Part shown: positions 29,901-48,880 of the stretch, in pieces | How the letters are laid out: every line of letters starts with the position of its first letter | Position numbering within the stretch: the stretch's first letter is position 1 | Assembly (NCBI RefSeq): GCF_029626155.1 | Contig: NZ_JARUBL010000001.1 | Location: 2,542,001-2,606,000 of the forward strand | Reading direction: 5' to 3' | DNA length: 64,000 nucleotides | Origin: Solwaraspora sp. WMMD1047 | GTDB lineage: Bacteria; Actinomycetota; Actinomycetes; Mycobacteriales; Micromonosporaceae | The notes under the pieces: generated by a model | Told to the model about the DNA's origin: nothing | Databases searched by the model: none | The model's input: only the letters and a program-made list of their open reading frames with translations | Program-made: the position numbers and the translations under genes

Positions 29901-30517
29901 CCACCGACCTTCTTCCCCGGGTCGTGGCGGGTGGGTGGAACGACCTCAACACCGCCGCCGAGCTGATCGCCGACGCGTTCACCCCCTTGGCCGTCGCCCG
30001 GTGGCTGGTGCCCGACCCGGGCCGCCGGACCCGGGTGCTGCGGGATCAGATGGCGATCCTGGCCGAGCATGCCCTGTTCCACGGCCGTGTCGATCTGCTC
30101 GCCGACTTCAGCGGGGTCGCGGTCTGGTTCGACCGCACCCGGCCGGTCGCCCCACCGCGCGACTACGACCGGCGGCTGCGGGCGGTCTGCGGCCCGGACA
30201 CCGACCGGTTCACCACTCTGGACGCCCTGCTCGATGCCCACTATCCGCACGGGCAGGCGCACCACCACCTGGCGCTGCTCGCGGTCGCCCCGGATCTGCA
30301 GGGCACCGGCCGCGGTAGCGCGCTGCTGCGTCACGGGTACGCCGTCGCCGACCTGGCGGGTGTGCCCACCTGCCTGGACGCCAGCAGTGGGGGTAGTCGT
30401 GACCTCTATCTGCGGCACGGCTACGAGGCGGGTGAACCTTTCCACCTGCCCGACGGTCCGCCGTTGTGGCCGATGCGCCGTCCGCCCCGGCCGGTAGGCC
30501 GCGACCCGGGAAGCTGA
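29897..30517 (+). CDS. GNAT family N-acetyltransferase
   Basis: 206 residues. The acetyl-CoA motif A is visible near 130-150 (LLAVAPDLQGTGRGSALLRH, Q/RxxGxG/A type), followed by VPTCLDASSGGSRDLYLRHG and YEAGEPFHLPDGP, a common end in this subfamily. Translationally coupled to the permease, so it may acetylate the transported amine or an export product. Substrate unknown. Confidence 0.85.
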   Translation: MTTDLLPRVVAGGWNDLNTAAELIADAFTPLAVARWLVPDPGRRTRVLRDQMAILAEHALFHGRVDLLADFSGVAVWFDRTRPVAPPRDYDRRLRAVCGPDTDRFTTLDALLDAHYPHGQAHHHLALLAVAPDLQGTGRGSALLRHGYAVADLAGVPTCLDASSGGSRDLYLRHGYEAGEPFHLPDGPPLWPMRRPPRPVGRDPGS

Positions 30518-34225: not shown

Positions 34226-34358
34226 CCCCACCGCGTCTTCTCGCGTCCGGGTGGCCTCGGCTTCGCTCGGGCGCACGGACAACCACGAACAGTTCGACCT
34301 CGATACCGGTACTCCGCGGCGCGTGCCGTCGTGGACCTTTCGACTGAAGGGAAGGCCG

Positions 34359-34991
34359 ATGAGTACTCAGCTTCTCGAACCTGGAGACGCGCGACCGCTA
34401 TCGGATCGCAGCGCAGGGGTTATCAGCAGCGACGACGTTGTGGAACGCGCCGCTGCGGCGTTCCTGGCCTCGCTGGGGATGCGCCTGGACACCGAGTCGA
34501 CGCGGCGTACGGCGGAGCGGATGGCCGCGGCGTACATCAGTTTGTTCACCTCGCGGCCGTTTGAGTTGACGACGTTCCCGAACGAGACCGCGCATCGTGA
34601 TCTTGTGCTGGCGCGAGCGGTGCCGTTTGTGTCGGTGTGCGCCCACCACGTTGTGCCGTTCGTGGGGACCGCGCACGTGGGGTACCTGCCCAAGGATCGG
34701 ATCGTCGGCTTGTCCAAGCTGGCACGGCTGGTGGACCACGTCGCCCGGGGCCCCCAGATTCAGGAGGAGATGACCCAGCAGATCGCCGGGTGGCTTGACG
34801 AGAACCTCGCCTCGCTGGGTGTCGGGGTGGTGGTTAAGGCGGAGCACCTGTGTATGACGCGCCGGGGCGTCAGGGCCCACGGCGCGACGACGGTGACGGT
34901 GGCGTGGCGCGGCCGGTTCGTCGACGACGCCGCGGCGCGGGCCGAGTTCCTGATCCTGGCGTCCGTCGATGATCCGGAGGTGTCCCGGTGA
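34359..34991 (+). CDS. folE: GTP cyclohydrolase I
   Basis: 210 residues. It converts GTP to 7,8-dihydroneopterin triphosphate, the entry step for preQ0 and folate. Zinc ligands C94, H97 (VCAHHVVPF) and C165 (HLCMTRRG) are present, with the RGVRAHGATTVT end of the active site. ATG 34359 is preceded by GGGAAGG. The stop overlaps the queC start, so here the enzyme serves the deazapurine route rather than folate. Confidence 0.95.
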   Translation: MSTQLLEPGDARPLSDRSAGVISSDDVVERAAAAFLASLGMRLDTESTRRTAERMAAAYISLFTSRPFELTTFPNETAHRDLVLARAVPFVSVCAHHVVPFVGTAHVGYLPKDRIVGLSKLARLVDHVARGPQIQEEMTQQIAGWLDENLASLGVGVVVKAEHLCMTRRGVRAHGATTVTVAWRGRFVDDAAARAEFLILASVDDPEVSR

Positions 34992-35731
34992 CCGGCATCC
35001 CCGTACCGGGCGGTCCGGGTCTGGCGGGGAGCCATCCTCCGCCTCGGCACGCGGTCGTCATCGTGTCGGGTGGGCTGGACAGCACGGTGGTGACCTACTG
35101 GCTGCACCAGCTCGGGACCCGGTTGAGTCTGCTGTCGGTCGACTACGGGCAGCGGCATCGAATCGAGCTGGAGCACGCCCGCCGTACCGCCGCCGCTGTC
35201 GGCGCGGCTCACGATCTGGTGGACCTGTCCGGGATCGGCGCCGTGCTCACCGGGTCGGCCCTGACCGACGACGCCGTGGAAATGCCGGACGGGCACTACA
35301 CGGACGCCTCGATGCGTTCCACCGTCGTGCCGAACCGCAACGCGACCATGCTCGACATCGCCGTTGCCGTGGCCGTGGCGCGTAGGGCTGACGCGGTTGT
35401 CTTCGGCGCTCACGCCGGTGACCATCCGATCTACCCCGACTGCCGGCCGGAGTTCGTGACCTCGTACGAGCGGACCGCCCGGACGGCCAACGAGGGATTC
35501 CTGGTCGACGGGTTCCGGGTGTTGGCGCCGTTCGCGGCGATGTCCAAGGCCGATATCGTCACCCTCGGCGCAACGCTCGGCGTGCCGTTCGCCGAGACGT
35601 GGTCCTGCTACCGGGGCGGCGAGCGCCACTGCGGGAGGTGCGGGACATGCGTGGAACGCCGGGAAGCGTTCGACCTGGCCGGGGTTCCCGATCCCACCCT
35701 CTACGTCGCCTCCGACCGTCGGGGGGTGTAG
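34988..35731 (+). CDS. queC: 7-cyano-7-deazaguanine (preQ0) synthase
   Basis: 247 residues. It turns 7-carboxy-7-deazaguanine into preQ0 with ATP and ammonia. The N-terminal PP-loop is SGGLDST (27-33), and the C-terminal zinc site is formed by the Cys residues of CYRGGERHCGRCGTC. FGAHAGDHPIYPDCRPEF is the family's substrate segment. All catalytic parts are present. GTG start inside the folE stop; queD follows after 3 bp. Confidence 0.95.
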   Translation: MTGIPVPGGPGLAGSHPPPRHAVVIVSGGLDSTVVTYWLHQLGTRLSLLSVDYGQRHRIELEHARRTAAAVGAAHDLVDLSGIGAVLTGSALTDDAVEMPDGHYTDASMRSTVVPNRNATMLDIAVAVAVARRADAVVFGAHAGDHPIYPDCRPEFVTSYERTARTANEGFLVDGFRVLAPFAAMSKADIVTLGATLGVPFAETWSCYRGGERHCGRCGTCVERREAFDLAGVPDPTLYVASDRRGV

Positions 35732-35734
35732 CGG

Positions 35735-36124
35735 GTGTTCCGGATCAGCAAGGAGTTCCGGTTCGAAGCGGCTCACTGGCTGCCGGATCTGCCCGAGGGG
35801 CACCAGTGCGGGCGGGTCCATGGCCACTCCTACACCGTTCGTATCCTGCTGGCCGCTGAGGTGCTGCGCCGGCCGGGGTTCGTCGCCGACTTCGCCGACC
35901 TGTCACTGGTGAAGGCGTACATCGACAGCACGCTCGACCACCGTTTCCTCAACGAGGTGCTCGACGTCGCCCCGACGAGCGAGCTGCTGGCCCGGCACTT
36001 CTACCACTGGTGCACGGCGAACCTGGTGTTGCCCGGCGGGGTGTGGGTGGAGTCGGTGCGGGTGTCGGAGACGCCCACGACGTACGCCGAGTACCTGCCA
36101 GCGTCAGGGGGCGGCGATGGTTGA
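35735..36124 (+). CDS. queD: 6-carboxy-5,6,7,8-tetrahydropterin synthase
   Basis: 129 residues. It converts dihydroneopterin triphosphate to CPH4. Zinc ligands H14, H29 and H31 (FEAAHWLP, VHGHSY) and the catalytic C25 (QCGRVHGHSY) are all present. GTG start after a short spacer; the end overlaps queE by 8 bp. Second step of preQ0 synthesis. Confidence 0.93.
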   Translation: MFRISKEFRFEAAHWLPDLPEGHQCGRVHGHSYTVRILLAAEVLRRPGFVADFADLSLVKAYIDSTLDHRFLNEVLDVAPTSELLARHFYHWCTANLVLPGGVWVESVRVSETPTTYAEYLPASGGGDG

Positions 36125-36827
36125 GCGCGCCGCGCGGCCCCTGCTGGTCGCGGAGATGTTCGGGCCGACGGTGCAGGGGGAGGGGCCATCGACCGGGCAG
36201 CAGGCGGTGTTCGTCAGGCTGTCGCGCTGCAACCTGTCCTGCCCGCCCTGCGATACCCCGTTCACGTGGGACACCTCACGGTACGACCTCCGGACGGAAA
36301 CCCAGCGGCTGCCGGGGGAGCAGGTCGTCGCGTGGGTGCTGGCCCAGACCGCCCCGCTGGTCGTGATCACCGGTGGGGAGCCACTGTTGCAGCAGGAGGT
36401 GCTTGTTCCCGTCGTCGCCAGCCTGACGGCCGCGGGTCGGCGGGTCGAGATCGAGACCAACGGCACCATCGCCCCGACGGCCAACCTCCAGCGGCTGGTC
36501 AGCGCCTTCAACGTCTCACCGAAGCTGGCAACCTTCGCCGCCGCCACCGATGACCACCGCCGCATCAACCCGACTGCGTTGGGCGCGTTGATGGCCGGCG
36601 GGAAGGCGGTGTTCAAGTTCGTCGTACACGGAACGGACGACCTGGCAGAGGTCGACCAGCTCTGCACCGCGTACGGGTTGGGTCCGGTCTGGGTGATGCC
36701 CGAGGGGACAACGGCGCAGCAGGTGGTCGCGGTGTCCCAAGCGGTCGCCAACGACGTGGTCCGACGCGGATGGAACCTCAGTAGTCGGCTGCACGTGCTG
36801 TGCTGGGGTGATCAACGTGGCCGGTGA
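36117..36827 (+). CDS. queE: 7-carboxy-7-deazaguanine synthase (radical SAM)
   Basis: 236 residues. It rearranges CPH4 to 7-carboxy-7-deazaguanine. The 4Fe-4S motif is C38-x3-C42-x2-C45 (CNLSCPPCD), preceded by the family's MFGPTVQGEGPSTGQQAVFV; ITGGEPLLQQ is the GGE motif. Overlaps queD upstream, and its last 20 bp overlap the RT-like gene. It completes the set folE-queD-queE-queC; no queF (preQ0 reductase) is seen in the window. Confidence 0.95.
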   Translation: MVERAARPLLVAEMFGPTVQGEGPSTGQQAVFVRLSRCNLSCPPCDTPFTWDTSRYDLRTETQRLPGEQVVAWVLAQTAPLVVITGGEPLLQQEVLVPVVASLTAAGRRVEIETNGTIAPTANLQRLVSAFNVSPKLATFAAATDDHRRINPTALGALMAGGKAVFKFVVHGTDDLAEVDQLCTAYGLGPVWVMPEGTTAQQVVAVSQAVANDVVRRGWNLSSRLHVLCWGDQRGR

Positions 36828-37776
36828 CCAGGAAGTCCGGGTGATCGGGCCTGGACGGGGCCGTCGTTCCCGCCCTGCTCGGCCGCGGGTGTGGGGTAGC
36901 GGCTCCGGTGACGCTGTGGCGGGCGGGATCGTTCCTGCCGTCCAGGCTGACCAAACGGTAGCGCACGGTGCGCCCGTAGCGCACTCCCTGATGCCGTACC
37001 TCCTCGACCAGCCGCACCTCGTCCGCGCCGCCCGCACCTGCATGAGACGCGGCGCGTCGCCCGGCGCAGACGGACTCACCTGGGGCCAGTACCGCAACGG
37101 CATGCACGCCCGCCTGACGGCGCTGGCGGACAGGCTCCGCCACCGGGTGTGGAAGCCGAGCCCACTGCGGACGGTGGACCTCACCACGTACACCGGCAAG
37201 ACGTTCCCGGCCGTGATCCCGACGGTCGAGGACCGGATCGTCCATCGGGCGATGCGCGCGGCGCTCGAGCCCGTCCTGGAACGCCGGATGCTGGCCGACT
37301 GGGTCTCGGGATATCGGCCCGGACGCAATCGGATCACCGCCGTCCGCCAGGCCACCCACCACGTCAACGCCGGTAAACGGTGGGTCGCGGATATCGACGT
37401 TGCCGGCGCGTCCGAGGGCGGCACCGCCGACCAGTTCGTGGACTGGCTCGCCCCGCACGTCGCCGACGGCTCGTTCCTCGCCCTGTTCCGCACCGCGCTG
37501 GACGGCCTGCCCACCCCGTTGGCGCCGGGGTCCGGCCTGTGGCCGGTGCTGTTCCACCTGCGCCTGGCCCACGTCGACCAGCACCTGAACGTCCCGGTGG
37601 TGCGCTTCGCCGACAACTACACCGCGTTCACCCCCGACCGTGACGCGGCGCTGACCGCCTACCGCCAGATCACCGACGCGCTCGCCTCGACAGGGCTACG
37701 ACCGAACACCCGCAAGAGCGCGGTACGGCCACCACACCTCGCGAACCCCGAAGACCTCTTCCTGATCGACGGCTGA
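36808..37776 (+). CDS. reverse-transcriptase-like protein with altered active site
   Basis: 322 residues. Group II/retron-like RT blocks are readable: SPGADGLTW (84-92), VIPTVEDRIVHRAM (136-149), GYRPGRNRITAVRQ (168-181), the motif-A strand VADIDVAG (193-200) with D195/D197, and motif C, where the expected YADD is FADN (267-270). So the first Asp stays and the second is Asn. The protein ends soon after the palm: there is no thumb, maturase or endonuclease domain. The start is uncertain (36808, 36817 or 36841). It is inside the preQ0 operon. Probably not a normal polymerase. Confidence 0.8.
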   Translation: MINVAGDQEVRVIGPGRGRRSRPARPRVWGSGSGDAVAGGIVPAVQADQTVAHGAPVAHSLMPYLLDQPHLVRAARTCMRRGASPGADGLTWGQYRNGMHARLTALADRLRHRVWKPSPLRTVDLTTYTGKTFPAVIPTVEDRIVHRAMRAALEPVLERRMLADWVSGYRPGRNRITAVRQATHHVNAGKRWVADIDVAGASEGGTADQFVDWLAPHVADGSFLALFRTALDGLPTPLAPGSGLWPVLFHLRLAHVDQHLNVPVVRFADNYTAFTPDRDAALTAYRQITDALASTGLRPNTRKSAVRPPHLANPEDLFLIDG

Positions 37777-37793
37777 CACGCCTTGGAGAATCC

Positions 37794-38369
37794 ATGATCG
37801 ACAAGCTGGTGACGCCCCTGCGGTGGCGAGCCGTCGCAGGGGGGACCTGCCGCTACGGCGACACCCAACGGCCCCGCCTGGTCACGGACCTCCTCGTGAC
37901 GATCACGCCGCTGACCCGCGGGCAACTCGGGTGGCCCACCTCGGCCCCGGACCTGCCGGTCACCGGCGTCGACTTCGCCGGGGCCACGGACCTCGCCGCG
38001 CAGCACGGCGGCCGGCTGCCCACCTCCACCGAGTGGGAATGGATCGCAGCCGGCGCCCAGCAACGCCGCTACCCGTGGGGCGACGAGCCCTGGACACCGG
38101 CGCGAGCGAACCTCACCAGCTCCGACACCTCACCGACCGGGCCGGTTCCGGTCCGCAGCCACCCCGACGGCGCCACGCCCGACGGCGTGCATGACCTGGC
38201 AGGCAACGTGTGGGAGTGGACCGCCACCCCCGTCATGGGGCAAGGACATGTGATCCGGGGCGGCTCCTACGCCTCCCGACCCCTCTACGCGCGCTGCACC
38301 TTCCTCAACGCCGCCCCGGACGACCTGCGCTCGCCCGGCATCGGTATCCGGCTGGTGAAGACCCCATGA
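37794..38369 (+). CDS. short FGE/SUMF1-like (C-type-lectin-fold) protein
   Basis: 191 residues, about two thirds of a usual formylglycine-generating enzyme. It has RLPTSTEWEW (74-83), YPWGDE (93-98), GVHDLAGNVWEW (131-142) and RGGSY (155-159). The copper-binding Cys pair of true FGE is missing: only C168 lies in that part. It therefore resembles the non-FGE members of the fold (binding or oxygenase-like proteins, or retroelement target proteins). ATG with GGAGA upstream; directly after the RT-like gene, and overlapping the next gene. Confidence 0.8.
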   Translation: MIDKLVTPLRWRAVAGGTCRYGDTQRPRLVTDLLVTITPLTRGQLGWPTSAPDLPVTGVDFAGATDLAAQHGGRLPTSTEWEWIAAGAQQRRYPWGDEPWTPARANLTSSDTSPTGPVPVRSHPDGATPDGVHDLAGNVWEWTATPVMGQGHVIRGGSYASRPLYARCTFLNAAPDDLRSPGIGIRLVKTP

Positions 38370-38869
38370 AAGACACCACCCCGACCCAGAACCCGACCGT
38401 CACCGCTGCGCCGTTCGGCGCGGACCCGACGAGGCGACTCGTGATCGTCGGATGCAGCGCGGAAAAGCGCACCACAGGGCAGCCGCAACCCGCGCTGGAC
38501 CTCTACGACGGAGGCTGCGTACCCCCGCTACGCGCGCGACTGGGCGACGCGCCGGCCAGGCGAGCGAGGATCCGCATCCTGTCCGCGCAACACGGACTCG
38601 TCACCGCCGACACCCCACTCGCCTGGTACGACCGACCACTCGACGCGCCACGCGCCGCCGAACTACGGTCCGCCGTCCGGCACCGCCTTGTTGCTGAATT
38701 CGACGTGGACGGCACCCCGGAGGAGATTCTGATCATCGCCGAGCCGCTCTACCTCGTACCGCTGGCCGACCTCCTCGCACTACCCGCACGACCACCTATC
38801 CACTGGATACCCGACCACGCCGACGGATGGCCGCACGCCGCCACGATCCTCGACCGGTGGGGATGGTGA
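38366..38869 (+). CDS. DUF6884-like protein
   Basis: 167 residues from the ATG in the previous stop. The core RLVIVGCSAEKRTTGQ, ALDLYDGG and RIRILSAQHGLVTADTPLAW is the pattern of DUF6884-type proteins known from actinobacteria and actinophages. From memory, some phage members are annotated as queuine/deazaguanine transglycosylase-like, which would fit the preQ0 genes here, but I cannot confirm that from this sequence. No metal site is evident. Confidence 0.7.
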   Translation: MKDTTPTQNPTVTAAPFGADPTRRLVIVGCSAEKRTTGQPQPALDLYDGGCVPPLRARLGDAPARRARIRILSAQHGLVTADTPLAWYDRPLDAPRAAELRSAVRHRLVAEFDVDGTPEEILIIAEPLYLVPLADLLALPARPPIHWIPDHADGWPHAATILDRWGW

Positions 38870-39903
38870 CCATGGGCCACACCCTCGCCGACGCGCTGCG
38901 CGAGCGCGGCAACGACTACCGACCCCACATCCAGCGGTTCACCGACCGCACCGCCCTCGACTGGCACGCCCTCACACCACCCGGGCCCGACCGGACCGCC
39001 CGCCTGTCCATCGTCATCCCCACCCACAACAACGCCCACAGCCTCGGTCCGGTCCTCGACGCGCTGGCCGCCGCGAACACCGCCGCCTCGGTCGAGGTGA
39101 TCGTCGTTGACGACGCCTCCACCGACCACACGCCCGCGATCATCGCCGCGCACCACACCGTCGACACCGCCGTCAGGCTGCCCCACCAGGTCGGCGCCGC
39201 CACCGCCCGCAACCTCGGCATCGCGATCGCCGAAGGCGACACCATCGTGCACCTCGACGCCGACATGGTGCTGCCCGACCACGTCCTCGCCGACATCGGC
39301 GCACGCGCCGCAGACGATCTTGTCCTCGTCGGCTTTCGCCACAACATCGCCTACCAACCCGATGCCAGCGGCAGGCCAACACTGCCCCCGGGTGAACCCG
39401 ACCTCGAACAAGACCACCGGGTCAACTGGCGCGCCCCCGCCAACCAGCCGATGTTCTACAGCGGCCAAACCTACACACGCCCCATCCACGGGCGTCCTCT
39501 CGACCACACCCGCGACTGGATCGACCTCGGCAACGCAGCCATCTACCACGACTGGGACCTACCCCGGATGGTCGTCACCGCACTCGTCGCTGTGCCCCGG
39601 GCGGTGGCACTCGACGTCGGCGGCTTCGACACCGGCTTCGGCATCGGCTGGAGCACCGAGGACACCCACCTCGGCGCGGCACTCATCGCCGCCGGCTGCA
39701 CAGTCGTCCCCCTGCGCCAAGCCCGCGGCTACCACCTCGACCCACCCCACCCCGGCGACGCGTGGAAAGCCAAATTCGCCACCGCCGCGCCGCGCGTCGC
39801 GTACTACCGGCGGCTGCTGGCTCAGCCACCGCCAACCGGCCGCCGCGCCGCGTTCCGCGCCGCCACCCACCAGCTGCTCGCCCGGACCCGGAGGCTGCGA
39901 TGA
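38866..39903 (+). CDS. family 2 glycosyltransferase
   Basis: 345 residues. GT-A fold: LSIVIPTHNNAHSLGPVLDA (about 43-62), VEVIVVDDASTDHTPAI, GAATARNLGIAIAEGD and the metal-binding HLDADM (DxD). C-terminal acceptor region with VGGFDTGFGIGWSTEDTHLG. Start GTG 38866 or ATG 38872. Coupled at both ends. It transfers a sugar from a nucleotide donor; acceptor unknown. Confidence 0.88.
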   Translation: MTMGHTLADALRERGNDYRPHIQRFTDRTALDWHALTPPGPDRTARLSIVIPTHNNAHSLGPVLDALAAANTAASVEVIVVDDASTDHTPAIIAAHHTVDTAVRLPHQVGAATARNLGIAIAEGDTIVHLDADMVLPDHVLADIGARAADDLVLVGFRHNIAYQPDASGRPTLPPGEPDLEQDHRVNWRAPANQPMFYSGQTYTRPIHGRPLDHTRDWIDLGNAAIYHDWDLPRMVVTALVAVPRAVALDVGGFDTGFGIGWSTEDTHLGAALIAAGCTVVPLRQARGYHLDPPHPGDAWKAKFATAAPRVAYYRRLLAQPPPTGRRAAFRAATHQLLARTRRLR

Positions 39904-40832
39904 GGCGGACCTTCGGCGCCCACGGCCACCTCATCCACGACCCGGCAACCGGCCTCACCCACCGTGCACCCCGCCCGGCGCCACCCGGACGCCTCACCCT
40001 TGACGACCGCGACGTCACCACCTGGCCGATCGCCCCACCCGCAAAACAGAACCGGAGCACACCGCTGAGCATCTGCTGGTCCCCGCTGGTGCGCTGCAAC
40101 CTGCACTGCCCCCAATGCCTCGACGACACCAGCCTCCCCGAAGCGGGCCGGCCGGAACGGCACCGCATTGCCGGTGTCCTCGCCGACGCTGACATCCTCG
40201 GCATCGACATCTCCGGCGGCGAACCACTCCTGCTACCCGATCTCGCCGACCTCGCCCGCACCGTGACCGCAGGCGGCAAAGCGGCGCTCTCGGTCACCAC
40301 GAACGGCTGGCACCTCGCCCGCCGCGCCGACGAACTCGCCGAGGTCATCGACGCGATCCGGGTCAGCCTCGACGGCCCCGACCCGCACAGCCACGACACC
40401 ATCCGCGGCGCGGGCAGCTTCACCCGCGCCATCGACGGCATCCACGCAGCTCGCGCCGCCGGCCTGACCGTACAGACACAGATGGTCCTCATGAACTCCA
40501 CGAAGACACACGCGCAACGCGCGATCGACCTCGCCGCACACCTCGGCGTTGGGGGAGTGACCTTCCTGCAGATGCTCCCCATCGGCGCCGCAGCGGACCT
40601 GACCGCAGAGATGCTCACCGACGCGGAAGCGACCGACATCCTCAACCGCCTCGACGCCCCACCCGACCTGCGAGTACGCCTACGGAGCCGTGAGGCCGCC
40701 AGCGGGTTCACCGTCATCCGCGCCGACGGCCGCGTCTGGCGCAACTCCCCACACGCCGCGCAGATCACCGGCCTGCGCCCGCTACACCAGGCCACGGACC
40801 TCACCCTGACCGGGAAGGACGGATCAGCATGA
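39900..40832 (+). CDS. radical SAM protein
   Basis: 310 residues. The cluster motif is C66-x3-C70-x2-C73 (VRCNLHCPQCLDD), then GIDISGGEPLLLPDLADLAR (GGE motif) and LSVTTNGWHLA. The organisation resembles MoaA/SPASM-type enzymes, but no C-terminal auxiliary Cys cluster is seen. Product unknown. ATG inside the glycosyltransferase stop; overlaps the phosphoribosyltransferase by 4 bp. Confidence 0.88.
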   Translation: MRRTFGAHGHLIHDPATGLTHRAPRPAPPGRLTLDDRDVTTWPIAPPAKQNRSTPLSICWSPLVRCNLHCPQCLDDTSLPEAGRPERHRIAGVLADADILGIDISGGEPLLLPDLADLARTVTAGGKAALSVTTNGWHLARRADELAEVIDAIRVSLDGPDPHSHDTIRGAGSFTRAIDGIHAARAAGLTVQTQMVLMNSTKTHAQRAIDLAAHLGVGGVTFLQMLPIGAAADLTAEMLTDAEATDILNRLDAPPDLRVRLRSREAASGFTVIRADGRVWRNSPHAAQITGLRPLHQATDLTLTGKDGSA

Positions 40833-41404
40833 ACCACCACCCGGCCCACCCACAACGCGTCTTCGCCCATCAACGGATCCTGCGACTCACCCAGGACGTC
40901 TTCCAGCACGGCGCCCGGATGCTGGCCGAGGCCGCCACCGACCGGATCGGAAACATCACCGCCGTCGTCGGGATCGCCAACGGCGGCCTCACCCCGGCCG
41001 CCACCATCGCCCACGCCCTGCGGACACCGACCTACCAGGTCACAGCGAAGCACAACACCACCGACGACCCCTACCACCAAGCCACCGGAACGGTGAGCCA
41101 CGACCTGCACCCGCTCGTCGTACGGCTACGCGGCCGACGGCTACACGGCAACGTCCTACTCGTCGACGACATCAGCGGCAGCGGAGCCACCTTCACCACG
41201 CTGCTACCCGCCCTCGCCCCGCACCTAGCCGCCACCTGCACCGTTCACACCGCAGCCCTCTGCCGCAACACCGGCTCCGACCACAACCCCCGCCTCTGGC
41301 TCTGGGACGTCAACGACTGGGTGCGCTTCCCATGGGAACACCCCATCCCGCACGGCCACCCGATCGAAGACCTCACCCTCCCGCACCGAGTACAACCCGC
41401 ATGA
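40829..41404 (+). CDS. phosphoribosyltransferase
   Basis: 191 residues, type I PRTase. The PRPP-binding loop is NVLLVDDISGSGATF (108-122); GIANGGLTPAATIAHAL is the flexible N-terminal part, and the C-terminus has DWVRFPWEHP as in xanthine/guanine-type PRTases. It could attach ribose-5-phosphate to a purine or to preQ0, as PRTases in 7-deazapurine nucleoside clusters do. The base preference is not readable. Confidence 0.85.
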   Translation: MNHHPAHPQRVFAHQRILRLTQDVFQHGARMLAEAATDRIGNITAVVGIANGGLTPAATIAHALRTPTYQVTAKHNTTDDPYHQATGTVSHDLHPLVVRLRGRRLHGNVLLVDDISGSGATFTTLLPALAPHLAATCTVHTAALCRNTGSDHNPRLWLWDVNDWVRFPWEHPIPHGHPIEDLTLPHRVQPA

Positions 41405-42501
41405 CCGCCATCGCCTTCGTCCTGGCGTCCTGGCGACCCGACGCCCCCGCCGGAATGGAACGCGCCGTCGCCGCCACCGCCGCCGGCCTCCGCGCCCTCG
41501 GACACCACCCCGTCATCATCACCGCCGACCCCACCGCCGGCACCAGCTACACCGGCATCCCGATAGCGCACATCAACGCCCTACACATCCCCACCCCGAC
41601 CACCGACGACACCCTCCGCACCGCCATCAACCAAGCCGCCAAACCGCTACAACACGAACTACTCGCGATCTACAGCCGCCACCAGGTCGACATCGCCATC
41701 TACGTCGACGGGCTCTGGGGACTCGGCCGGGTCATGCCCACCAACGCCCCCAGCCGCCGGATCCTCGCTATCCACGTCGTCGGCCACGACGCCGACCTCC
41801 ACGCCGCGCTCGCCCGCCACCCCACCGCGGTCATCGCCCCGTCCACCGTCGTCCTGCACCGCGCCACAGCCCGGGGCTACGACACCACACGATGGCGAGT
41901 CGTCCCCAACCCGCTGCTGACCGACCCCGCCGCCCCCGACACCGAACACCGCGAACACCTCCGCCAACAAGCCCCGATCAAGATCCTCGCCCGACTCGGA
42001 CCCGAGAAAGGCGTCCACGAACTCCTCACCGCCACGCCCCCCATCCACCGGCCCACTCACGTCGCCCTCGCCGACGCCGGATTCGAACCGCAAGCCGGAG
42101 ACCAGACCCGTCTCCTGCAAGCCTGCCGCGCCGAAGCGGCCACACACCGCCAGCTCACGATCCTTCCCGGCCTACCATGGCGCTCAACAGCAGGCTGGCT
42201 CGCCGACGCCAGCGCCGTCATCGTCCCCTCCCTGGCCGAAACATTCGGCCTGGTCGCCCTCGAAGCCCTCTCCGGCGGCACACCCGTCATCGCCTACGAC
42301 GTGGACAACCTGCCCGCACTCATCGGACAAGGCGGAGTCGTCGTACCCCGCCCACACGGACCAGGAGCACTGTGGCGAGCCGCCCACGATCTGCTCGCAG
42401 ACCCGGTAACGTACGGCCGAACCTCACGGGCCGGCTACTACCTTTCGCGGGACTATCGGCCCGCCCAGATCGCTGACCTGCTCGTGAAGGTGGTGAGCTG
42501 A
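41401..42501 (+). CDS. family 4 (GT-B) glycosyltransferase
   Basis: 366 residues. N-terminal GT-B half (FVLASWRPDAPAGMERAVAA), donor half with RLGPEKGVHELL, and the E-x7-E signature VPSLAETFGLVALEALSGGT followed by PVIAYDVDNLPALI. ATG in the preceding stop. It uses a nucleotide sugar; partner of the GT2 in the same operon. Confidence 0.88.
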   Translation: MTAIAFVLASWRPDAPAGMERAVAATAAGLRALGHHPVIITADPTAGTSYTGIPIAHINALHIPTPTTDDTLRTAINQAAKPLQHELLAIYSRHQVDIAIYVDGLWGLGRVMPTNAPSRRILAIHVVGHDADLHAALARHPTAVIAPSTVVLHRATARGYDTTRWRVVPNPLLTDPAAPDTEHREHLRQQAPIKILARLGPEKGVHELLTATPPIHRPTHVALADAGFEPQAGDQTRLLQACRAEAATHRQLTILPGLPWRSTAGWLADASAVIVPSLAETFGLVALEALSGGTPVIAYDVDNLPALIGQGGVVVPRPHGPGALWRAAHDLLADPVTYGRTSRAGYYLSRDYRPAQIADLLVKVVS

Positions 42502-43412
42502 TGGGCGGTCACCCGCGCATCCAGCAACACATGCTCCCGATAGCCGACGCCGCACCCCCAGACGACCGACCGCCGCCGCTGCTCCTCGTCGACGGCCACA
42601 ACCTCCTCTGGGGAGCCACCTTCGGCTTCCCCGCCCCGATCTACTCCCGCGACAAAACCCGCACCCTCACCGGCCTGTTCGCGTTCTTCGCGCTGCTACG
42701 CGTCGCCGTACGCAACGAGGTACCCGGCGGCCGACCCGAGATCATCGTCGTCTTCGACGGCGAACACGGCAGCACTGCACGCAAAGCAGAACACGACGGC
42801 TACAAGGCAAACCGACCCACCGACGCCGCAGCCCTCGAACCACTCCAATACCTGCCCGACGTCCGCCGAGGCCTCGACAACCACGGCATCAAATGGATCG
42901 AAATCGACCACGAGGAAGCCGACGACGTGATCGCCACCCTCGTCGCCGCCACACCACCTCCGCGACCCGTGCTGATCATGTCCCGAGACCGTGACTACTA
43001 CCAGCTCGTTACCGAACGCGTCCTCGTCCTCAACACCAGATTCCGCGCCGGCAAGCGCCATGTTGACCCGGCCCAGGTGTACGAACGGCACCAGGTCACA
43101 CCCGCCCAATGGGCCGACTTCCGCGCCCTAGCCGGCGACCCCGCCGACGAAATCCCCGGCATCCCCGGCATCGGCGCCAAAACCGCAGCAACGCTCCTCA
43201 CGGACGGCCTCACCCTCGACGACCTACCTCAATCCGGACGCCTCACTACCGGACGCGGCCGAACCGTCGCCGCACAACTCGACATCGCCATCAAATGGCG
43301 CACCATGATCCGCCTCAACCCCACCGTAGCCCTACCACTAATCCCGACCGCCATACCAAGCCCGGCACTGCCGGCACCCGCCCAGATCGTGGAAGAACTC
43401 GGCCTGTGGTAG
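42501..43412 (+). CDS. 5'-3' exonuclease (FEN-like)
   Basis: 303 residues. PIN/FEN catalytic residues: LLLVDGHNLLWG (first Asp), IIVVFDGEHGSTARK, DHEEADDVIATLVA, LIMSRDRDYYQL, and the helix-hairpin-helix DEIPGIPGIGAKTAATLL. It is like the N-terminal domain of Pol I but stands alone, in a biosynthetic operon. ATG overlaps the GT4 stop by 1 bp. Confidence 0.88.
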   Translation: MGGHPRIQQHMLPIADAAPPDDRPPPLLLVDGHNLLWGATFGFPAPIYSRDKTRTLTGLFAFFALLRVAVRNEVPGGRPEIIVVFDGEHGSTARKAEHDGYKANRPTDAAALEPLQYLPDVRRGLDNHGIKWIEIDHEEADDVIATLVAATPPPRPVLIMSRDRDYYQLVTERVLVLNTRFRAGKRHVDPAQVYERHQVTPAQWADFRALAGDPADEIPGIPGIGAKTAATLLTDGLTLDDLPQSGRLTTGRGRTVAAQLDIAIKWRTMIRLNPTVALPLIPTAIPSPALPAPAQIVEELGLW

Positions 43413-44023
43413 CCGCCCCGTCCATTATGACCATCATGGCCCACGCCGACGACGCCGAACTGTGGGCAGGAGGAACTCTTGCGCGCCACGCCCGAGACGG
43501 CTGGGAGATTACCATCGTCACGCCCCGCCATGACGAAACACGCGACGACGAAGCCGAGGCAGGAGCCACGGTTCTCGGCGCCCAACTCCGTCAACTCGAC
43601 TACCTAACCATCGAGGCCATCCAGACAGTCCTGAAAGAAAGTCAACCCGCTGTGGTGATCACTCACCCAACAGACGACATACACCCCGAGCATCAGCACG
43701 CCGCCCACGCTGTGCTCGCAGCAATCCCCGAGATCGTGATTTCTGCCGGCCGCCCACAACGCCTATATACCTCTGACGGCTACAACAACCTCAACAGACT
43801 CGGCCATCCCCTTTACCTACCCGCCATCATCGATATCACCGAGACATTCGAAATCAAAATGCGTGCATTACGATGCCATCGGTCTCAACCGATCAATGAA
43901 CACTTCGGCCCCATGACTGAGGCGCTCGGTAGGTTGCACGGACAGCGGATAGGCGTCCGGCATGCCGAAGCATTCCGGCCAATTCCGATTCTCGGCCGCC
44001 TGTTCCCGGCCATCGGTCTCTAG
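43406..44023 (+). CDS. PIG-L family deacetylase
   Basis: 205 residues from GTG 43406 (ATG 43427 is the alternative). The zinc motif AHADDAELWAGGT corresponds to HPDDAEL of the LmbE/MshB family, and THPTDDIHPEHQHAAHAV gives the second His group. These enzymes remove acetyl from N-acetylglucosamine-type sugars, so it may act on the sugar added by the GT genes. Last gene of the operon. Confidence 0.85.
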   Translation: MVAAPSIMTIMAHADDAELWAGGTLARHARDGWEITIVTPRHDETRDDEAEAGATVLGAQLRQLDYLTIEAIQTVLKESQPAVVITHPTDDIHPEHQHAAHAVLAAIPEIVISAGRPQRLYTSDGYNNLNRLGHPLYLPAIIDITETFEIKMRALRCHRSQPINEHFGPMTEALGRLHGQRIGVRHAEAFRPIPILGRLFPAIGL

Positions 44024-44525
44024 TTGTTCTAACGCGAATTGTCACCGGCGCCGAAATTCCATACCATGTTTTGCTCCGCAGTCGAACCACCTCCGATCGC
44101 GGAAACGGCCAACAGTCGACGGAGTCGAATTGCTCAACATCGCGTTAGTCCGGTCACTCGGTACCGGTACTGCGGCAGCGAGATCCCCCCAGGCCCTGGG
44201 CGGCATCGAACTACGCCTCACGGCGGTCGTGGAGGGGCCCGCTGCGGGGTCCGGCGCGGCGGTTCGGCGAGCGGCCTGGGGAAAACGGACCAGGGCAATC
44301 CCTACACCACGGCCCAGGCCGACTCAACCAAACGGCTATCTCTACTCGGGTCTACCGGATAGGCGATATGTTGCCGACGGACATGGTGTCCGTCTCGGTT
44401 GCCCCAAGTTGATCAAAAAATATATGAATGAAAGTCGCATAGAAAGCCCAGGGTTTTGTGGCTAAGTCCGTTGCGTAACCAGAGTGCCGATCGTGTCGTT
44501 AGAGGGAGGTAGCGTACAGACCTCT
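44024..44525. other. 500-bp gap after the preQ0 operon
   Basis: No supported gene. An AT-rich stretch at 44408-44445 stands out from the GC-rich surroundings and may hold a promoter for the 44526 gene. GGAGGT lies about 15 bp before ATG 44526. Short frames on either strand here are without motifs. Confidence 0.4.
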
Positions 44526-44993
44526 ATGGAGATCATCGATGACCCCCTGCGTTTGTACCCCCATCACCCCGATCCAGAGGTCGAGAGGGTGTTCGCGATC
44601 CTGTACGTCCGTGGGTTCACCTTCGAAGTTCACTCGAAGAGCTGCGACGTGATCTGCCCATGCAAGGAGCACTCTCGGCAGGCCCACTTCAAACCCACCA
44701 ATCCTTTGGACTACGGCCAGCAATTGTTGAGGTGGGCACGGAAACTCCGGTGTTGGCCAGAAATGAGGGACGGGAAACTGTCATGCGGGTTCGCGTCACG
44801 TTGCAGGTCGCCCCGAGCGATCGGCCCGAGGGGCGAATACCCGCAGACCGGCTCCGGAAAGAAGCCAACCGCATCCTGGAGGCGCTACTCCTCGCAGAGG
44901 AGGCAGGGGATCTTGAAAACGTCTCCACCGAGACCGATGCATCAGAAAGTTCGATCACGGCTGAAGCGGCCATCCCGCCTGCAACCGACATAG
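44526..44993 (+). CDS. hypothetical protein, 3' end probably read-through
   Basis: The first 85 residues look like a real small protein (LRLYPHHPDPEVERVFAILY, a SCDVICPCKE Cys group). After about residue 86 the composition changes to Ser/Arg/Pro-rich and the frame overlaps the next gene by 211 bp, as expected when the natural stop has been lost just before 44783. Possibly a two-gene unit with the 111-residue protein. No family recognised. Confidence 0.5.
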   Translation: MEIIDDPLRLYPHHPDPEVERVFAILYVRGFTFEVHSKSCDVICPCKEHSRQAHFKPTNPLDYGQQLLRWARKLRCWPEMRDGKLSCGFASRCRSPRAIGPRGEYPQTGSGKKPTASWRRYSSQRRQGILKTSPPRPMHQKVRSRLKRPSRLQPT

Positions 44994-45118
44994 AGGTTGC
45001 GAGCGAACTCCTTACTTCGCTGTTGTTGGAGGCGGCGGTCGCCCCTGACGGAGACGCACAAGTTGCATGCCAGCTAACTTACGAGGTGCGCGGTTCGGAG
45101 ACTGAGGTATTGGAGTGA
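44783..45118 (+). CDS. hypothetical acidic protein
   Basis: 111 residues from ATG 44783: MRVRVTLQVAPSDRPEGRIP, then a helical acidic middle (NRILEALLLAEEAGDLENVS) and a beta-like end (DAQVACQLTYEVRG). No family. It is immediately downstream of, and overlapped by, the 44526 frame. Confidence 0.55.
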   Translation: MRVRVTLQVAPSDRPEGRIPADRLRKEANRILEALLLAEEAGDLENVSTETDASESSITAEAAIPPATDIEVASELLTSLLLEAAVAPDGDAQVACQLTYEVRGSETEVLE

Positions 45119-45154
45119 ACGCTTGTCCCGCGAGACGTGCCCAGCGCCACTCCT

Positions 45155-45330
45155 CCATCCAGTCCTGCACTGCGGCGCGGTCGGCCAGGGCTCGAAGCCC
45201 TGGCGCGTAGCTGCGACGTTCCCGTCGAAACAGCTTTGCGATAGCCCTGCGCTGGCGGCGTTGAGCTTGATCGCCTCTGGTACGAGTCGCTCATACTCCA
45301 AGAGCTGGAGCATCGGCTGTCGGCCCAGAC
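45155..45330 (-). pseudogene. relic of the XRE/TPR regulator C-terminus
   Basis: In one minus-strand frame PMLQLLEYERLVPEAIKLNA matches the end of the intact regulator at 24635-26050 (AMLQLLEYERLVPEAIKLNA); the following residues match only after a frame change. The DNA aligns over about 165 bp with 24640-24805. The upstream part of the gene is absent. Confidence 0.7.
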
Positions 45331-45334
45331 GCTT

Positions 45335-45735
45335 ACAGGAACGGCGCTCGCGTCGCAGCCGTCCGCAGCGGGGTCGGGTCACTCGCCGTGTGCCAAAACT
45401 GCACGGGCCGGTCACCGGGACGTCGTCGTCAGCCCATTCCATGAGAACGAAGTCGTTCTCCCCGATGTTGACTCCCGTCGCGTTCCGGCCCCGACGTTCC
45501 GCAATACGTATAGTTGTCCGGCGACATAGTTGATGCGCCATGCGACTTGTGGTGGCGGAGGAGGGATGGCGGACTCGGCGGCTTCCGCTTGCCGTACGGC
45601 GGCCCGGGCGGACAGTTCGGCGGCAAGTGGCTGCGCGCCGTGCTTCCCTGAGTGAGCGGTTCGACACGATCAGGGCGGCGATTGAGACGACGACCGAGGC
45701 TGCGACCCGACTGAGGCGGCGATGTCTCCTCCGTC
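45335..45735 (-). pseudogene. frameshifted membrane-anchored protein relic
   Basis: Pieces in different minus-strand frames join into one plausible protein: a membrane segment (ASVVVSIAALIVSNRSLREA), then an Ala/Arg helix leading to PPPQVAWRINYVAGQLYVLR, then TGVNIGENDFVLMEWADDD. At least two frameshifts separate them. This resembles small actinobacterial proteins with one N-terminal anchor and a beta-rich outer domain. Confidence 0.45.
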
Positions 45736-45737
45736 CA

Positions 45738-45929
45738 TCACGGCTCGACACGCGCTTCGGTGGCCTCGGCGGCGGCGAGCCGGGCGACCTGGTCCAAGGT
45801 GAGTCGGGGTACGCCGTCCTCGCCGGCCAGGGCGGGCCAAGCGGTACTGAAGGTGCCGCGCTCCTGGGCGTAAAGCGCACTGGTCAGACGGGTCTGAATG
45901 CGGGTGGCGAGGTCCTCTGTGGCGGCCAT
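45738..45929 (-). CDS. possible small protein
   Basis: 63 residues from ATG 45929: MAATEDLATRIQTRLTSALY then QERGTFSTAWPALAGEDGVP. Good codon pattern, no strong ribosome site, no family. It lies just upstream, on the same strand, of the broken membrane protein and may have been its partner. Confidence 0.4.
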   Translation of the reverse strand: MAATEDLATRIQTRLTSALYAQERGTFSTAWPALAGEDGVPRLTLDQVARLAAAEATEARVEP

Positions 45930-46314
45930 GGTGTTGAGGGTACGACCGGACACGCCGGTCGGTGTGTCCCCCAGGGATGACCCGCGCGACTGATGATGTC
46001 GTGGCCCTTGGCGGTCTCCCGCTCCGGGTTCTACCCCCTGGGCCCGCGCCCGGCCGGACTAGGGCTGCGATGACCCTCGGCCACGGCGCCGCCGGTTCGG
46101 TCAGCAGGGACCGAGTTCGCCGCCGACAAACCCCGGCTTCACTTCCCGTGGAGTGAACGCACTCCAGGCAACGAGACAGCAACCAGCCGATCAACAGCAT
46201 CCTCACCCCCCCGGGTGTGCCCGAAGCGCTGTGGGGTCGGTGATGATCACATCGAGAGTCGCTAGAGTCGCGGTTGCCTCGCGCCGTGCCTAGCTGACGG
46301 AATTGGTGGTCTCG
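45930..46314. other. gap before the EACC1 gene
   Basis: About 385 bp with no supported gene; a plus-strand frame to 46156 has no motif. The sequence just before 46315 lacks a strong ribosome site. Confidence 0.35.
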
Positions 46315-46683
46315 ATGGATCAGGTTCACATGTCTGTACTCGTGGTGTGCGCCGGTCTCGATGCCGACGGTGTGGCAGAACTAGTTTCTGAGCTGCAACG
46401 GGAGGTGCTCGCCACCGACGTGGACAACGCTGAGTTGGCTGACTCTGGGACGGCTCCGGAGGGCGCGAAGTCCGGCGGCCTGGTCGCGTTCGGGGCGTTG
46501 GCGATCACTTTGGCGCCGATGGTGGTAGAGAGTCTCATGGGGGTCATCGCCTCGTGGTTGAGCCGTCAGCCATCCGACGTTGAGGTCGAGATCGGTGGCA
46601 ACCGGTTTCGCGGGCGGGTGTCGAAAGCACAACGCGACGAGCTCGTGAGCGCTTTCCTGCGCAGCGTGAACGATGCGTCATGA
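46315..46683 (+). CDS. effector-associated constant component 1 (EACC1)-like protein
   Basis: 122 residues. An N-terminal beta strand (SVLVVCAGLDADGVAELVSE), a central hydrophobic helix (FGALAITLAPMVVESLMGVI) and a short C-terminal strand-helix (VEVEIGGNRFRGRVSKAQRD) give the EACC1 pattern known beside caspase, peptidase and other effectors in actinobacterial conflict systems. ATG 46315 is chosen (GTG 46303 possible). The stop overlaps the caspase start. Confidence 0.75.
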   Translation: MDQVHMSVLVVCAGLDADGVAELVSELQREVLATDVDNAELADSGTAPEGAKSGGLVAFGALAITLAPMVVESLMGVIASWLSRQPSDVEVEIGGNRFRGRVSKAQRDELVSAFLRSVNDAS

Positions 46684-48092
46684 GGGAGAGATCCCGGCGG
46701 CGCAGGGCGTTGCTGATCGGATGCGGCACGTTCGCCGACGACTCTCTGGCGCAGCTGCGGTCGCCTCGGCACGATGTCGAAGAGCTGGGCCGGGTTCTGC
46801 ACGAAGCCGGGTACACCGAGGTGTCGCCCCGGGTGGACTGCACCGCGCGCGAGGCGCAACGCGCCATTGAGGAGTTCCTGCAACAGGCACGCGTCGATGA
46901 CGCCCTCAATGTCTTGTACTTCTCCTCTCACGGGCTGCCGGACAGGCACGGCAAGCTCTACTTCGCGTTCTCCGACACCGAAAAGCAGTATCCGAGCGCG
47001 ACCGCGGTTGCTGCCGAGTGGGTACGTGACCGCGTCTATGACAGCCGTTCCAAATCTACGGTGGTGCTGGTCGACTGCTGCTTCAGCGGTGGCTTCATCG
47101 CCGGTATGCAAGCCCGGACCACCGTAGAGCCCGACGTCGATGTCCTCGTCCGGGGCCTGCCAGAAGGCAGCGGGGTCGCGGTGCTGACGGCGTCCGGCGA
47201 GCGGGAGGCCAGCTTTGAGGACGTCAACTCAGCAATCATCCGGCCGTCCTACTTCACCGAAGCCGTCGTCGCGGGCATCGGGACAGGCGCGGCCGACCTT
47301 GACCGGGACGGCCGGATCACCGTCGACGAACTCTACGAGTACGTCTACCACCGTGTGGTGAGCGGGCCATCACCGCAGCGCCCTCGGAAGCTTGGCATGG
47401 GCGAAGGTTCGTTGGTTGTAGCCGACACCACGGCGATCGCCGCACCAGTCGGCCCATCACCCGTACCGCAGGCGAGCCCGCCGCCCATACCGCAGGTGAG
47501 CCGTCCGGCAGCCGACGCCGAGACCAAGCCGTTGCGGGCGCGAGGTGTGCTCGGCTACGCAGCCTTCGACGGGCAGTGGATCACTATCGGCAAGAACGGT
47601 ATGGGTCCCGCCCTCAAGGGCGAACGGCAACTGCACATCAGCGAAGTAGCCGCGGTGGCGCTCAAACCGGCAACCATGCTCCACTACGGCTACCTGCAAA
47701 TAATCCAGAAAGGCGTCGAGCCGGCGCCGATCAGCCGCTACGGGCCAGGCGCCGGACGGCCCCCGATGGACGATCGGGCCTCAGTATCGTTTGCCCGGGC
47801 CGTGAACGATCAGATGCGACAGATCCGAGACGCGATCGAGGCGGCCATCGGCGTCCCGCCCGAACCACCCGACCTGGCCGAACGTAATCACAGCAGCTGG
47901 GCGGCCTTCGGACGTGGCCTACTCTGGACCCTAGGAATCGTGGCAGCGATCCTCGAAGTAGTGGTAGTCGCCATTACTGTCACCGGGAGCTGGGAAGACC
48001 AGAGTGCAGGCACTGCCATCGTGGGAAACCTGCTCTCCGGCTTCGCGGTTCTAGTTATCGGCCGCGTACTGTACGTCAACTACCGCCGGTGA
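46680..48092 (+). CDS. caspase-family protease with PH-like and membrane domains
   Basis: 470 residues. Caspase p20 core with both catalytic residues: His in LYFSSHGLPD (about 76-85) and Cys in VVLVDCCFSGGFIAGM (about 128-143). ALLIGCGTF is the first strand. Next come a Pro-rich linker, a DUF4429/PH-like domain (about 285-375, FDGQWITIGKNG) and two C-terminal membrane segments (WTLGIVAAILEVVVVAITV; LLSGFAVLVIGRVLYV). Coupled to EACC1, so a membrane-tied effector of an immune-type module is inferred. Confidence 0.85.
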   Translation: MRERSRRRRALLIGCGTFADDSLAQLRSPRHDVEELGRVLHEAGYTEVSPRVDCTAREAQRAIEEFLQQARVDDALNVLYFSSHGLPDRHGKLYFAFSDTEKQYPSATAVAAEWVRDRVYDSRSKSTVVLVDCCFSGGFIAGMQARTTVEPDVDVLVRGLPEGSGVAVLTASGEREASFEDVNSAIIRPSYFTEAVVAGIGTGAADLDRDGRITVDELYEYVYHRVVSGPSPQRPRKLGMGEGSLVVADTTAIAAPVGPSPVPQASPPPIPQVSRPAADAETKPLRARGVLGYAAFDGQWITIGKNGMGPALKGERQLHISEVAAVALKPATMLHYGYLQIIQKGVEPAPISRYGPGAGRPPMDDRASVSFARAVNDQMRQIRDAIEAAIGVPPEPPDLAERNHSSWAAFGRGLLWTLGIVAAILEVVVVAITVTGSWEDQSAGTAIVGNLLSGFAVLVIGRVLYVNYRR

Positions 48093-48880
48093 CCGATATA
48101 CACAGTGCAGGCCATCAACCGCATGCCCTCGGGCCATACCTCAGCGAGGGTGAGCAGTCCAGCGACCTCAGCGACGTGGACGCCGCGGCGGACCTGGCCG
48201 CCGAGGGTCAACGCCGCCTCGGACAGCACAGCCACGTGGCCGACGGCCGTGTTGGAGCCCGAGTTCCCAGGCCGCAGCACCTAGAGGATCTCGCCGGGGT
48301 CCGCGCAGGACACGACAATCGGGCGCAGCCCGAACACGTGCTTCTTGTTACGTGCCCGTGGCGCCTTTCCGTGTCGGAATGCGACTCCACCAGCGAGGCG
48401 TCCACGTCGAGCACGATCCAGCCGGTCCAGTCCTGCTCGGCCACCCGCAGCCACGGGAATCCGCCGGGCCGGGCAGCCAGCCTGGTACACGTCGCCCGCC
48501 GGTGGGCAGGGCGGGCCTTCGCGACCAGGGCCAGGGCGGCCCGCGTCGAGTTCGGTCAGCGCCGCCACGTGGTCGGGGTCGAGGCTATCTGACCCAGCAC
48601 CGCCCGCGAGGCCGACAGCAGGTTCGTGGCCCCGGCCACCGACACCGCGCCCACCCAGCACCACCGCCACGTAAACGAGGACCTGGCCACGGTCGTGGCC
48701 GGAGACGAAGTCCGGCCTCAGACGCCCCAACGCCGTTGACAACCCCGAGCGCAGCCCAGACCCGATCAGCCAAAGGTCGCAGCAACGGGCGCCGACCGCG
48801 CAGATCAGCCCAGACGCCCCGGTGGTTAACGTCAGCCCGCGGAGACCGTTACTCACTGCTGCCACCGGATGTGAGCCAGG
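48093..48880 (-). pseudogene. IS1380-like transposase relic
   Basis: Family pieces appear in three minus-strand frames: LRSGLSTALGRLRPDFVSGH and GHDRGQVLVYVAVVLGG at the start, LDVDASLVESHSDTERRHGH in the middle (first catalytic Asp block) and MLRPGNSGSNTAVGHVAVLS later. Several frameshifts, internal loss and no C-terminus, so it is dead. No terminal repeats recognised. Confidence 0.75.

Follow-up and report, generated by a model that had tools for sequence, protein, structure and literature searches.

The 64,000-nucleotide (nt) window analysed here (contig NZ_JARUBL010000001.1, positions 2,542,001 to 2,606,000 of the forward strand) comes from the actinobacterium Solwaraspora sp. WMMD1047 and contains, at 34359-44023, a cassette of 13 plus-strand genes in the order folE-queC-queD-queE-RT-FGE-DUF6884-GT2-rSAM-PRTase-GT4-5'nuclease-PIG-L. 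The first four form a module for the synthesis of preQ0 (7-cyano-7-deazaguanine). The remainder include a reverse transcriptase (RT)-like protein, a nuclease and several putative sugar-transfer and tailoring enzymes, and a structured RNA lies on the opposite strand. The features, with their best-matching models, are as follows (window coordinates).

34359-34991, plus strand: folE, GTP cyclohydrolase I (PF01227, 1.7e-54), absent at some relatives' loci
34988-35731, plus strand: queC, preQ0 synthase (PF06508, 4.7e-63)
35735-36124, plus strand: queD (PF01242, 7.2e-32)
36117-36827, plus strand: queE, 7-carboxy-7-deazaguanine (CDG) synthase (TIGR03365, 9.9e-26, below the curated cut-off)
36817-37776, plus strand: RT-like protein (PF00078, 2.7e-11), conserved RT domain at 36982-37776
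36847-36947, minus strand: structured RNA, a ~100-nt hairpin with its 5' end at about 36947 (covariation; covariance models R1 and R2)
36955-36962, minus strand: -10 promoter box of the RNA, GCTACCGT (GNTANNNT)
37794-38369, plus strand: FGE/EgtB-like (C-type-lectin-like) protein (PF03781, 2.1e-25)
38366-38869, plus strand: DUF6884 protein, of the family annotated for DpdC (PF21818, 2.9e-9), with invariant C30, K34, S73 and G77
38863-39903, plus strand: GT2 glycosyltransferase (PF00535, 1.7e-22)
39900-40832, plus strand: radical SAM (rSAM) enzyme, MoaA/viperin-like (PF04055, 8.6e-17; MoaA, 2.8e-22, below the curated cut-off; PADLOC pVip, 1.4e-15)
40829-41404, plus strand: phosphoribosyltransferase (PRTase; PF00156, 2.4e-14) with the phosphoribosyl pyrophosphate (PRPP) loop DDISGSGAT
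41401-42501, plus strand: GT4 glycosyltransferase, MshA-like (PF13692, 4.4e-16; MshA, 3e-12, below the curated cut-off)
42501-43412, plus strand: 5'-3' exonuclease/flap-endonuclease (FEN)-type nuclease (PF02739, 1.5e-28; PF01367, 6.6e-15), acidic residues intact
43427-44023, plus strand: PIG-L deacetylase, BshB1-like (PF02585, 4.8e-12; BshB1, 7e-17, below the curated cut-off), zinc motif intact

An earlier first-pass annotation, made from the letters alone, had placed folE, queC, queD and queE here with their catalytic residues, and this is borne out: Pfam confirms the families at these positions and up to 15 loci retain the motifs (the QueC PP-loop, the zinc and HGH motifs of QueD, CxxxCxxC in QueE and the rSAM enzyme, CxHH in FolE). 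The same is true of DDxxGxGAT in the PRTase, the acidic residues of the nuclease and HxDDxE in PIG-L, whilst the EX7E motif of GT4 is present in the window, the one copy checked for it. The DUF6884 protein matches PF21818 and carries CxxxK and LSAxxG motifs, and no SPASM domain is seen in the rSAM enzyme. The FGE-like label stands as far as membership of PF03781 goes. The cysteine pair (CxxxxC) with which true FGE binds copper is absent at all 15 loci, however, and the protein is therefore not a formylglycine-generating oxidase. The near-continuous run of overlapping genes described earlier is also found: nine of the 12 junctions overlap if the likelier ATG of PIG-L at 43427 is used (the others being gaps of 3, 17 and 14 nt), and ten overlap or touch if its frame is started at 43412, with overlaps of 1-11 nt between most neighbours. 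These tight junctions make it likely that the cassette is expressed as a single transcript.

The operon is a real, conserved unit of 12-13 genes whose carriers are a group of soil bacteria. In the genome samples drawn, which were not exhaustive, the order queC-(queD-queE)-RT-FGE-DUF6884-GT2-rSAM-PRT-GT4-FEN-PIGL is found again in several families, at identities of about 36-75%, being repeated at the loci of genomes G132, G634, G694, G702, G661, G535, G697, G530 and G505. A further 27 intact loci, belonging to several actinobacterial families, show the tailoring genes in that order, and two other genomes have a rearranged form. Members of the cassette RT subfamily score more than 200 bits in whole-genome searches, against ~130 bits and below for ordinary group II RTs, and five RT relatives found by a scan of genome contigs all lie in the same gene order (one contig starts inside the RT gene). 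Between-locus distances are correlated among the cassette genes (pairwise mean 0.81). Intact relatives sit beside queC and/or queD-queE, the latter pair lying several to about 25 kb downstream of the cassette in one family (f3). The co-occurrence of the later genes with preQ0 genes that had been proposed is thus upheld, and the rarity of RT-to-PIG-L genes beside preQ0 genes, set beforehand as the outcome that would count against it, was not observed; judged from these sequences, the link is far beyond chance. At two loci the operon continues directly after PIG-L with genes for a DegT aminotransferase and a Gfo/Idh oxidoreductase, a pair typical of amino-sugar synthesis (L005 13752-15994 and L004 17241-19417, in Thermomonospora echinospora and a metagenome-assembled genome).

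The cassette has likely spread by horizontal transfer, to judge from sequence comparison. A 14.4-kb block that includes it is 97.1% identical across two genera (L120, L121). There are also genomes with two or three copies, some of these broken. Two further pairs of loci are 99.99% (L123/L124) and 99.8% (L119/L121) identical, for which mislabelled or contaminated assemblies are possible. Broken or partly deleted copies were seen at L119, L122, L125, L128 and L129, and genomes G1300, G1245 and G1264 also hold an intact copy.

The complete preQ0 module serves the cassette alone. In each of 12 cassette genomes queE occurs exactly once, in or near the cassette, and it is found in none of four related controls without one. 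TGT (PF01702) is absent from all 12, the same profile being positive in 14 of 14 control genomes, and so is QueF (PF14489), for which the controls were again positive; the lack of queF noted earlier for the window therefore extends to every cassette genome. With neither TGT nor QueF present, queuosine and DNA marking of the dpd type are not what preQ0 is made for here. The lack of DpdA/TGT excludes the known way of inserting it into DNA or tRNA, and preQ0 therefore goes to an undescribed fate. That the later genes convert preQ0 into an undescribed product, as the first-pass annotation proposed, is thus supported to the extent that they form a unit with preQ0 genes in genomes without TGT or QueF, but the choice it offered between a nucleoside and a nucleic-acid mark is left undecided; the RT, 5' nuclease and RNA may keep a nucleic-acid role possible beside a glycosylated nucleoside. 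A feature missed in that annotation concerns queC, which is present in 11 of the 12 genomes and nowhere in the genome of the remaining one (G244). There the pathway should stop at CDG, suggesting that CDG, not preQ0, is the entry point. Separately, one relative without a cassette (G095) has a TGT-family gene and a distinct queC-like gene (41% identity) ~15 kb apart (G095:C1:4520333-4536414), probably a dpd-type island.

Also missed was the structured RNA. The DNA at 36847-36947, flanked in canonical loci by queE (or queC) on one side and the RT core on the other, is more conserved than codons account for, and the RNA comprises a 10-bp closing stem (P1), conserved internal loops, a variable stem (P3) and a hairpin (P2) with a 12-nt loop. 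In an alignment of 11 sequences, a 28-pair hairpin gives a covariation score of 0.277, compared with 0.137 +/- 0.020 for shuffled alignments and a maximum of 0.128 when slid. With 33 aligned copies (30 distinct) the score is 0.392 versus 0.169 +/- 0.012 shuffled, 91.2% of cells are paired and 17 pairs have changed on both sides. The covariance model finds one match in each of the 12 cassette genomes and none in eight others, and it recovers the held-out copies from G244 (69.0 bits) and Embleya (62.6 bits), where the RNA lies between folE and FGE. Only four of 395 genomes of the class contain the RNA, and these are exactly the four with the cassette RT. Searched for alone, the RNA rediscovers the cassette: 7 of 220 and 16 of 201 further genomes have it, and the surroundings of 20 new matches comprise 15 complete cassettes, four partial or broken ones with the RT or pieces of it (L119, L122, L125, L129) and a single locus (L128) with only queC pieces beside the RNA. 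Over all loci read, 34 of 35 RNA copies share a locus with the RT or its pieces, and the RNA is thus closely associated with the RT. Rfam gives no match to the window at the gathering threshold, on which ground a known riboswitch or RNA family was rejected, and at E<=5 the stretch 36700-37100 has no match to a group II intron. This strongly covarying RNA forms a new family.

Several observations bear on the strand. In the 11-sequence alignment, mispairs read on the plus strand comprise 18 A.C against 7 G.U and the former become G.U on the minus strand, where all 110 cells of P1 pair. RNAalifold consensus energies are -45.2 for minus and -36.0 for plus; on the minus strand individual sequences adopt mainly the consensus fold, but on the plus strand the fold differs from species to species. 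The held-out G244 copy scores only slightly better on the minus strand (69.0 versus 67.0 bits). In 32 of 33 loci a TANNNT sequence, mostly GNTANNNT, precedes the 5' end of the RNA by exactly 13 nt, and in each of the first 14 loci there is no other within 45 nt (background 0.0007 per nt). The pairing asymmetry, the folding and the fixed -10 box together argue strongly that the RNA is encoded on the minus strand (36947 to 36847). A location on the operon strand is disfavoured by the A.C mispairs, the weaker consensus energy and the pairing of P1.

The same DNA also lies within an open frame. In the window the RT frame begins at a GTG (36817) overlapping the queE stop and stays open through the RNA gene. 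Canonical loci likewise have an RT frame that starts near or overlapping the upstream stop codon and is open through the RNA region, and in 13 of 13 loci read a whole number of codons separates the RNA from the conserved HSLM of the RT. In the rearranged form, at both loci, a GTG that overlaps the stop of folE is in frame and reads through the RNA into FGE. The RNA region is thus probably also translated on the plus strand, keeping the neighbouring genes coupled. An N-terminal extension of the RT was rejected as the whole explanation of 36847-36947: third codon positions show unusual conservation and are rich in A/T (about 33%, compared with about 15% in the RT core), and both arms co-change.

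The RT-like protein is predicted to be a group II intron RT domain without a thumb. Profile searches match it to group II maturase RT domains (5hhj, 3e-35; GsI-IIC, 1e-31), and an AlphaFold2 (AF2) model of the 264-amino acid RT domain (pLDDT 89, pTM 0.85) superimposes on the GsI-IIC RT with a TM score of 0.85 at 28% identity, DRT9 and retron RTs aligning less well. Like class IIC group II intron RTs and the group II-like G2L4 RTs, it has the fingers-palm sequence and fold, and group II RTs work with an RNA partner. Unlike group II intron RTs, it has no thumb (X) domain, the frame ending after RT7; no ribozyme domains are found around it by Rfam, and it sits in a metabolic operon. In the cassette RTs both the Asp of motif A and the first Asp of motif C are invariant; motif C reads FADN in nearly all of them, FADD in a single member and TDN in G244. 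The earlier RT-like label is therefore right about the fold but needs correcting in motif C and in the missing thumb. The PADLOC general RT model scores 3e-32 and the best UG model only 8e-6, indicating that this is not a UG-family RT; DRT-specific models likewise score far below the general one. Nor does it fall in the retron clade, its nearest relatives being group II RTs and the RNA lying on the opposite strand.

The rearranged form, seen in G244 and Embleya sp. NBC_00888, has the order queD-queE-DUF6884-(PRT)-PIGL'-WbqC-folE-RNA-FGE-GT4-RT-GT4'-FEN and lacks GT2 and the rSAM gene. It keeps the RT, 5' nuclease, DUF6884, FGE, GT4, queD-queE and the RNA. Since the RT, 5' nuclease and RNA are retained where GT2 and rSAM have been lost, this nucleic-acid module is the core of the cassette rather than peripheral to it, and the three presumably work together.

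Starting from the established cassette, its dedicated preQ0 supply, the RNA and the RNA-RT association, we infer the chemical steps beyond preQ0, the binding of the RNA by the RT and the kind of product made. We tentatively propose an actinobacterial 7-deazaguanine nucleotide glycoconjugate system, probably horizontally spread, with the RT, non-coding RNA (ncRNA) and 5' nuclease at its core. FolE, QueD, QueE and QueC would make preQ0 (or CDG in the one genome without queC). PRTases of the cassette kind couple a base to PRPP, and here the product would be a 7-deazaguanine nucleotide. MshA/MshB and BshA/BshB pairs add N-acetylglucosamine (GlcNAc) and then deacetylate it; by analogy GT4 would add GlcNAc and PIG-L deacetylate it, with GT2 and the rSAM enzyme carrying out further tailoring. 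The DUF6884 protein would act on the 7-substituent: its family is the one assigned to DpdC (PMC11888242), which is described as an amidohydrolase in the dpd pathway (PMC6884629). The RT-like protein would join the minus-strand RNA in a ribonucleoprotein for which the 5' nuclease is the processing enzyme, and the modified nucleotide would be assembled on this particle or incorporated by means of it. What is made could be a glycosylated nucleotide, either free or bound to nucleic acid. The group II fold of the RT speaks for the particle, and the DegT and Gfo/Idh genes at two loci speak for the sugar chemistry. Several points weigh against this proposal. The substrates are guesses, similarity to MshA, BshB1 and MoaA falling below curated cut-offs. 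Polymerase activity of the RT is doubtful, given the absence of a thumb and the Asn that nearly all members have as second residue of motif C. The RNA of the rearranged form lies two genes from the RT, upstream of FGE, so that position does not force RT and RNA to pair; the PRTase is missing locally in Embleya; and a fold search with DUF6884 gave weak matches only (including SMUG1-type DNA glycosylases and AF0587, E 0.02-0.1), which were not used as evidence. A bolder version of the proposal, in our estimate unlikely, is RNA-scaffolded or RNA-templated biosynthesis, in which the RT/ncRNA particle, with the hairpin RNA as template or carrier, builds or holds a short nucleic acid containing glycosylated 7-deazaguanine that the 5' nuclease trims or releases, giving a hypermodified oligonucleotide or a nucleotide made on RNA.

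A possible alternative is that the cassette is an ordinary secreted nucleoside antibiotic cluster on the toyocamycin/huimycin mould, the RT, 5' nuclease and RNA providing regulation or self-protection. The toyocamycin/sangivamycin and huimycin clusters share a folE-queD-queE-queC module with the cassette, which, like preQ0-derived nucleoside clusters, has a complete module dedicated to it; the toyocamycin pathway has a PRTase downstream. The preQ0 genes, PRTase, glycosyltransferases and PIG-L would all fit a glycosylated deazapurine, amino-sugar genes occur at two loci and the patchy distribution is that expected of secondary metabolism. Huimycin itself is methylated preQ0 joined to N-acetylglucosamine, and its cluster, like the cassette, has a glycosyltransferase downstream of the preQ0 module (PMC7439116). 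As described, however, that cluster lacks the RT, 5' nuclease, DUF6884, FGE-like, PIG-L and ncRNA components, and a huiC-type methyltransferase is not seen in the cassette. Neither is a conserved exporter gene found inside it, and an accessory role sits poorly with the RT, nuclease and RNA being among the most conserved parts, kept where GT2 and rSAM are lost. Overlapping with this, and rather doubtful, is the idea that the RNA is merely a cis-acting regulator (antisense RNA or operator) of the tailoring module and the RT an inert leftover or RNA-binding regulator. Its location at the boundary of a preQ0 gene and the first tailoring gene in both arrangements, overlapping the start of the downstream frame, is what such a regulator would show; for purely antisense action, though, complementarity is what counts, and this leaves unexplained a 100-nt hairpin that covaries, conserves its internal loops and carries a loop of 12 nt.

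Marking of DNA or RNA with preQ0 or 7-amido-7-deazaguanine (ADG) derivatives by a non-TGT route, as a variant of the dpd system, is improbable. The dpd islands have preQ0 genes and a DpdC-family DUF6884 protein in common with the cassette, and polymerase-like and nuclease proteins are at hand. Unlike those islands, the cassette has neither DpdA/TGT (missing from all 12 genomes) nor dpdD-K and no restriction operon, and it carries an RT, an ncRNA and sugar enzymes; marking would leave the PRTase and glycosyltransferases unexplained. We consider an anti-phage RT-ncRNA system of the DRT or retron type, acting through a toxic or signalling 7-deazaguanine nucleotide, just as improbable. Retrons and DRTs do pair an RT with a structured ncRNA of its own, usually a single copy at each locus, the rSAM enzyme has weak viperin similarity and the next genes in the window form a defence island. 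The cassette differs in having its RNA on the opposite strand, an RT that groups with group II RTs and not the UG or retron families, and a dozen metabolic enzymes, and defence neighbours were not seen recurrently beside other copies (few flanks being fully annotated). A diversity-generating retroelement (DGR) is brought to mind by the FGE-like (C-type lectin) gene directly after the RT and by the adjoining RNA as a would-be template, but can be set aside as extremely improbable: no template/variable repeat pair is present in 34300-46500, the 3' end of FGE is conserved, not hypervariable, and the RT is nearer to group II than to the DGR RT (17% identity, TM 0.77).

What is new, as far as we found, is the combination of genes and RNA: no described system with the same set came to light, and the open-access papers searched, which are weak evidence of absence, contain no description of a cluster joining preQ0/7-deazaguanine genes to an RT and an ncRNA. 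The MshA/MshB and BshA/BshB thiol-cofactor pathways, which share a GT4 and PIG-L deacetylase pair and are among the nearest named models, differ from the cassette in that it lacks genes for the ligase step, falls below curated cut-offs and is joined to preQ0. Were the glycoconjugate proposal true, it would add a further fate for preQ0 beside tRNA and DNA marks and free nucleoside antibiotics, and no earlier metabolic operon is known to us that has at its centre a domesticated group II intron RT with an ncRNA of its own. Even an ordinary nucleoside product would leave a new, strongly covarying RNA family, a set of unexploited natural-product-like actinobacterial clusters and the question of why a pathway to a small molecule should need an RT and a structured RNA together with a 5' nuclease.

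Some flanking genes recur. An amino-acid permease and a GNAT acetyltransferase lie upstream of folE in the window (28569-30517) and in Actinocatenispora (L003 3504-5644), and the same permease is near cassettes at two Micromonospora loci. A XRE-TPR-like regulator and a small SLOG-like-looking protein (no Pfam match) flank cassettes at L013 (3740-5591, 14905-16879) and L056 (560-2127), the pair being on both sides in G132. In family f3 a conserved protein of 157-160 amino acids, of no known family, is encoded just upstream of queC (L054 11379-11861, L057 11698-12180, L058 7647-8120). The defence-island-like stretch that follows the cassette in the window (46303-58062) comprises EACC1-like and caspase-like genes (46303-48092), a 1500-amino acid helicase with an MTES_1575 nuclease end, similar to PDC-S37/Mokosh models (48914-53416), a Schlafen AlbA_2 gene (54892-56226) and an ApeA HEPN gene (56701-58062).

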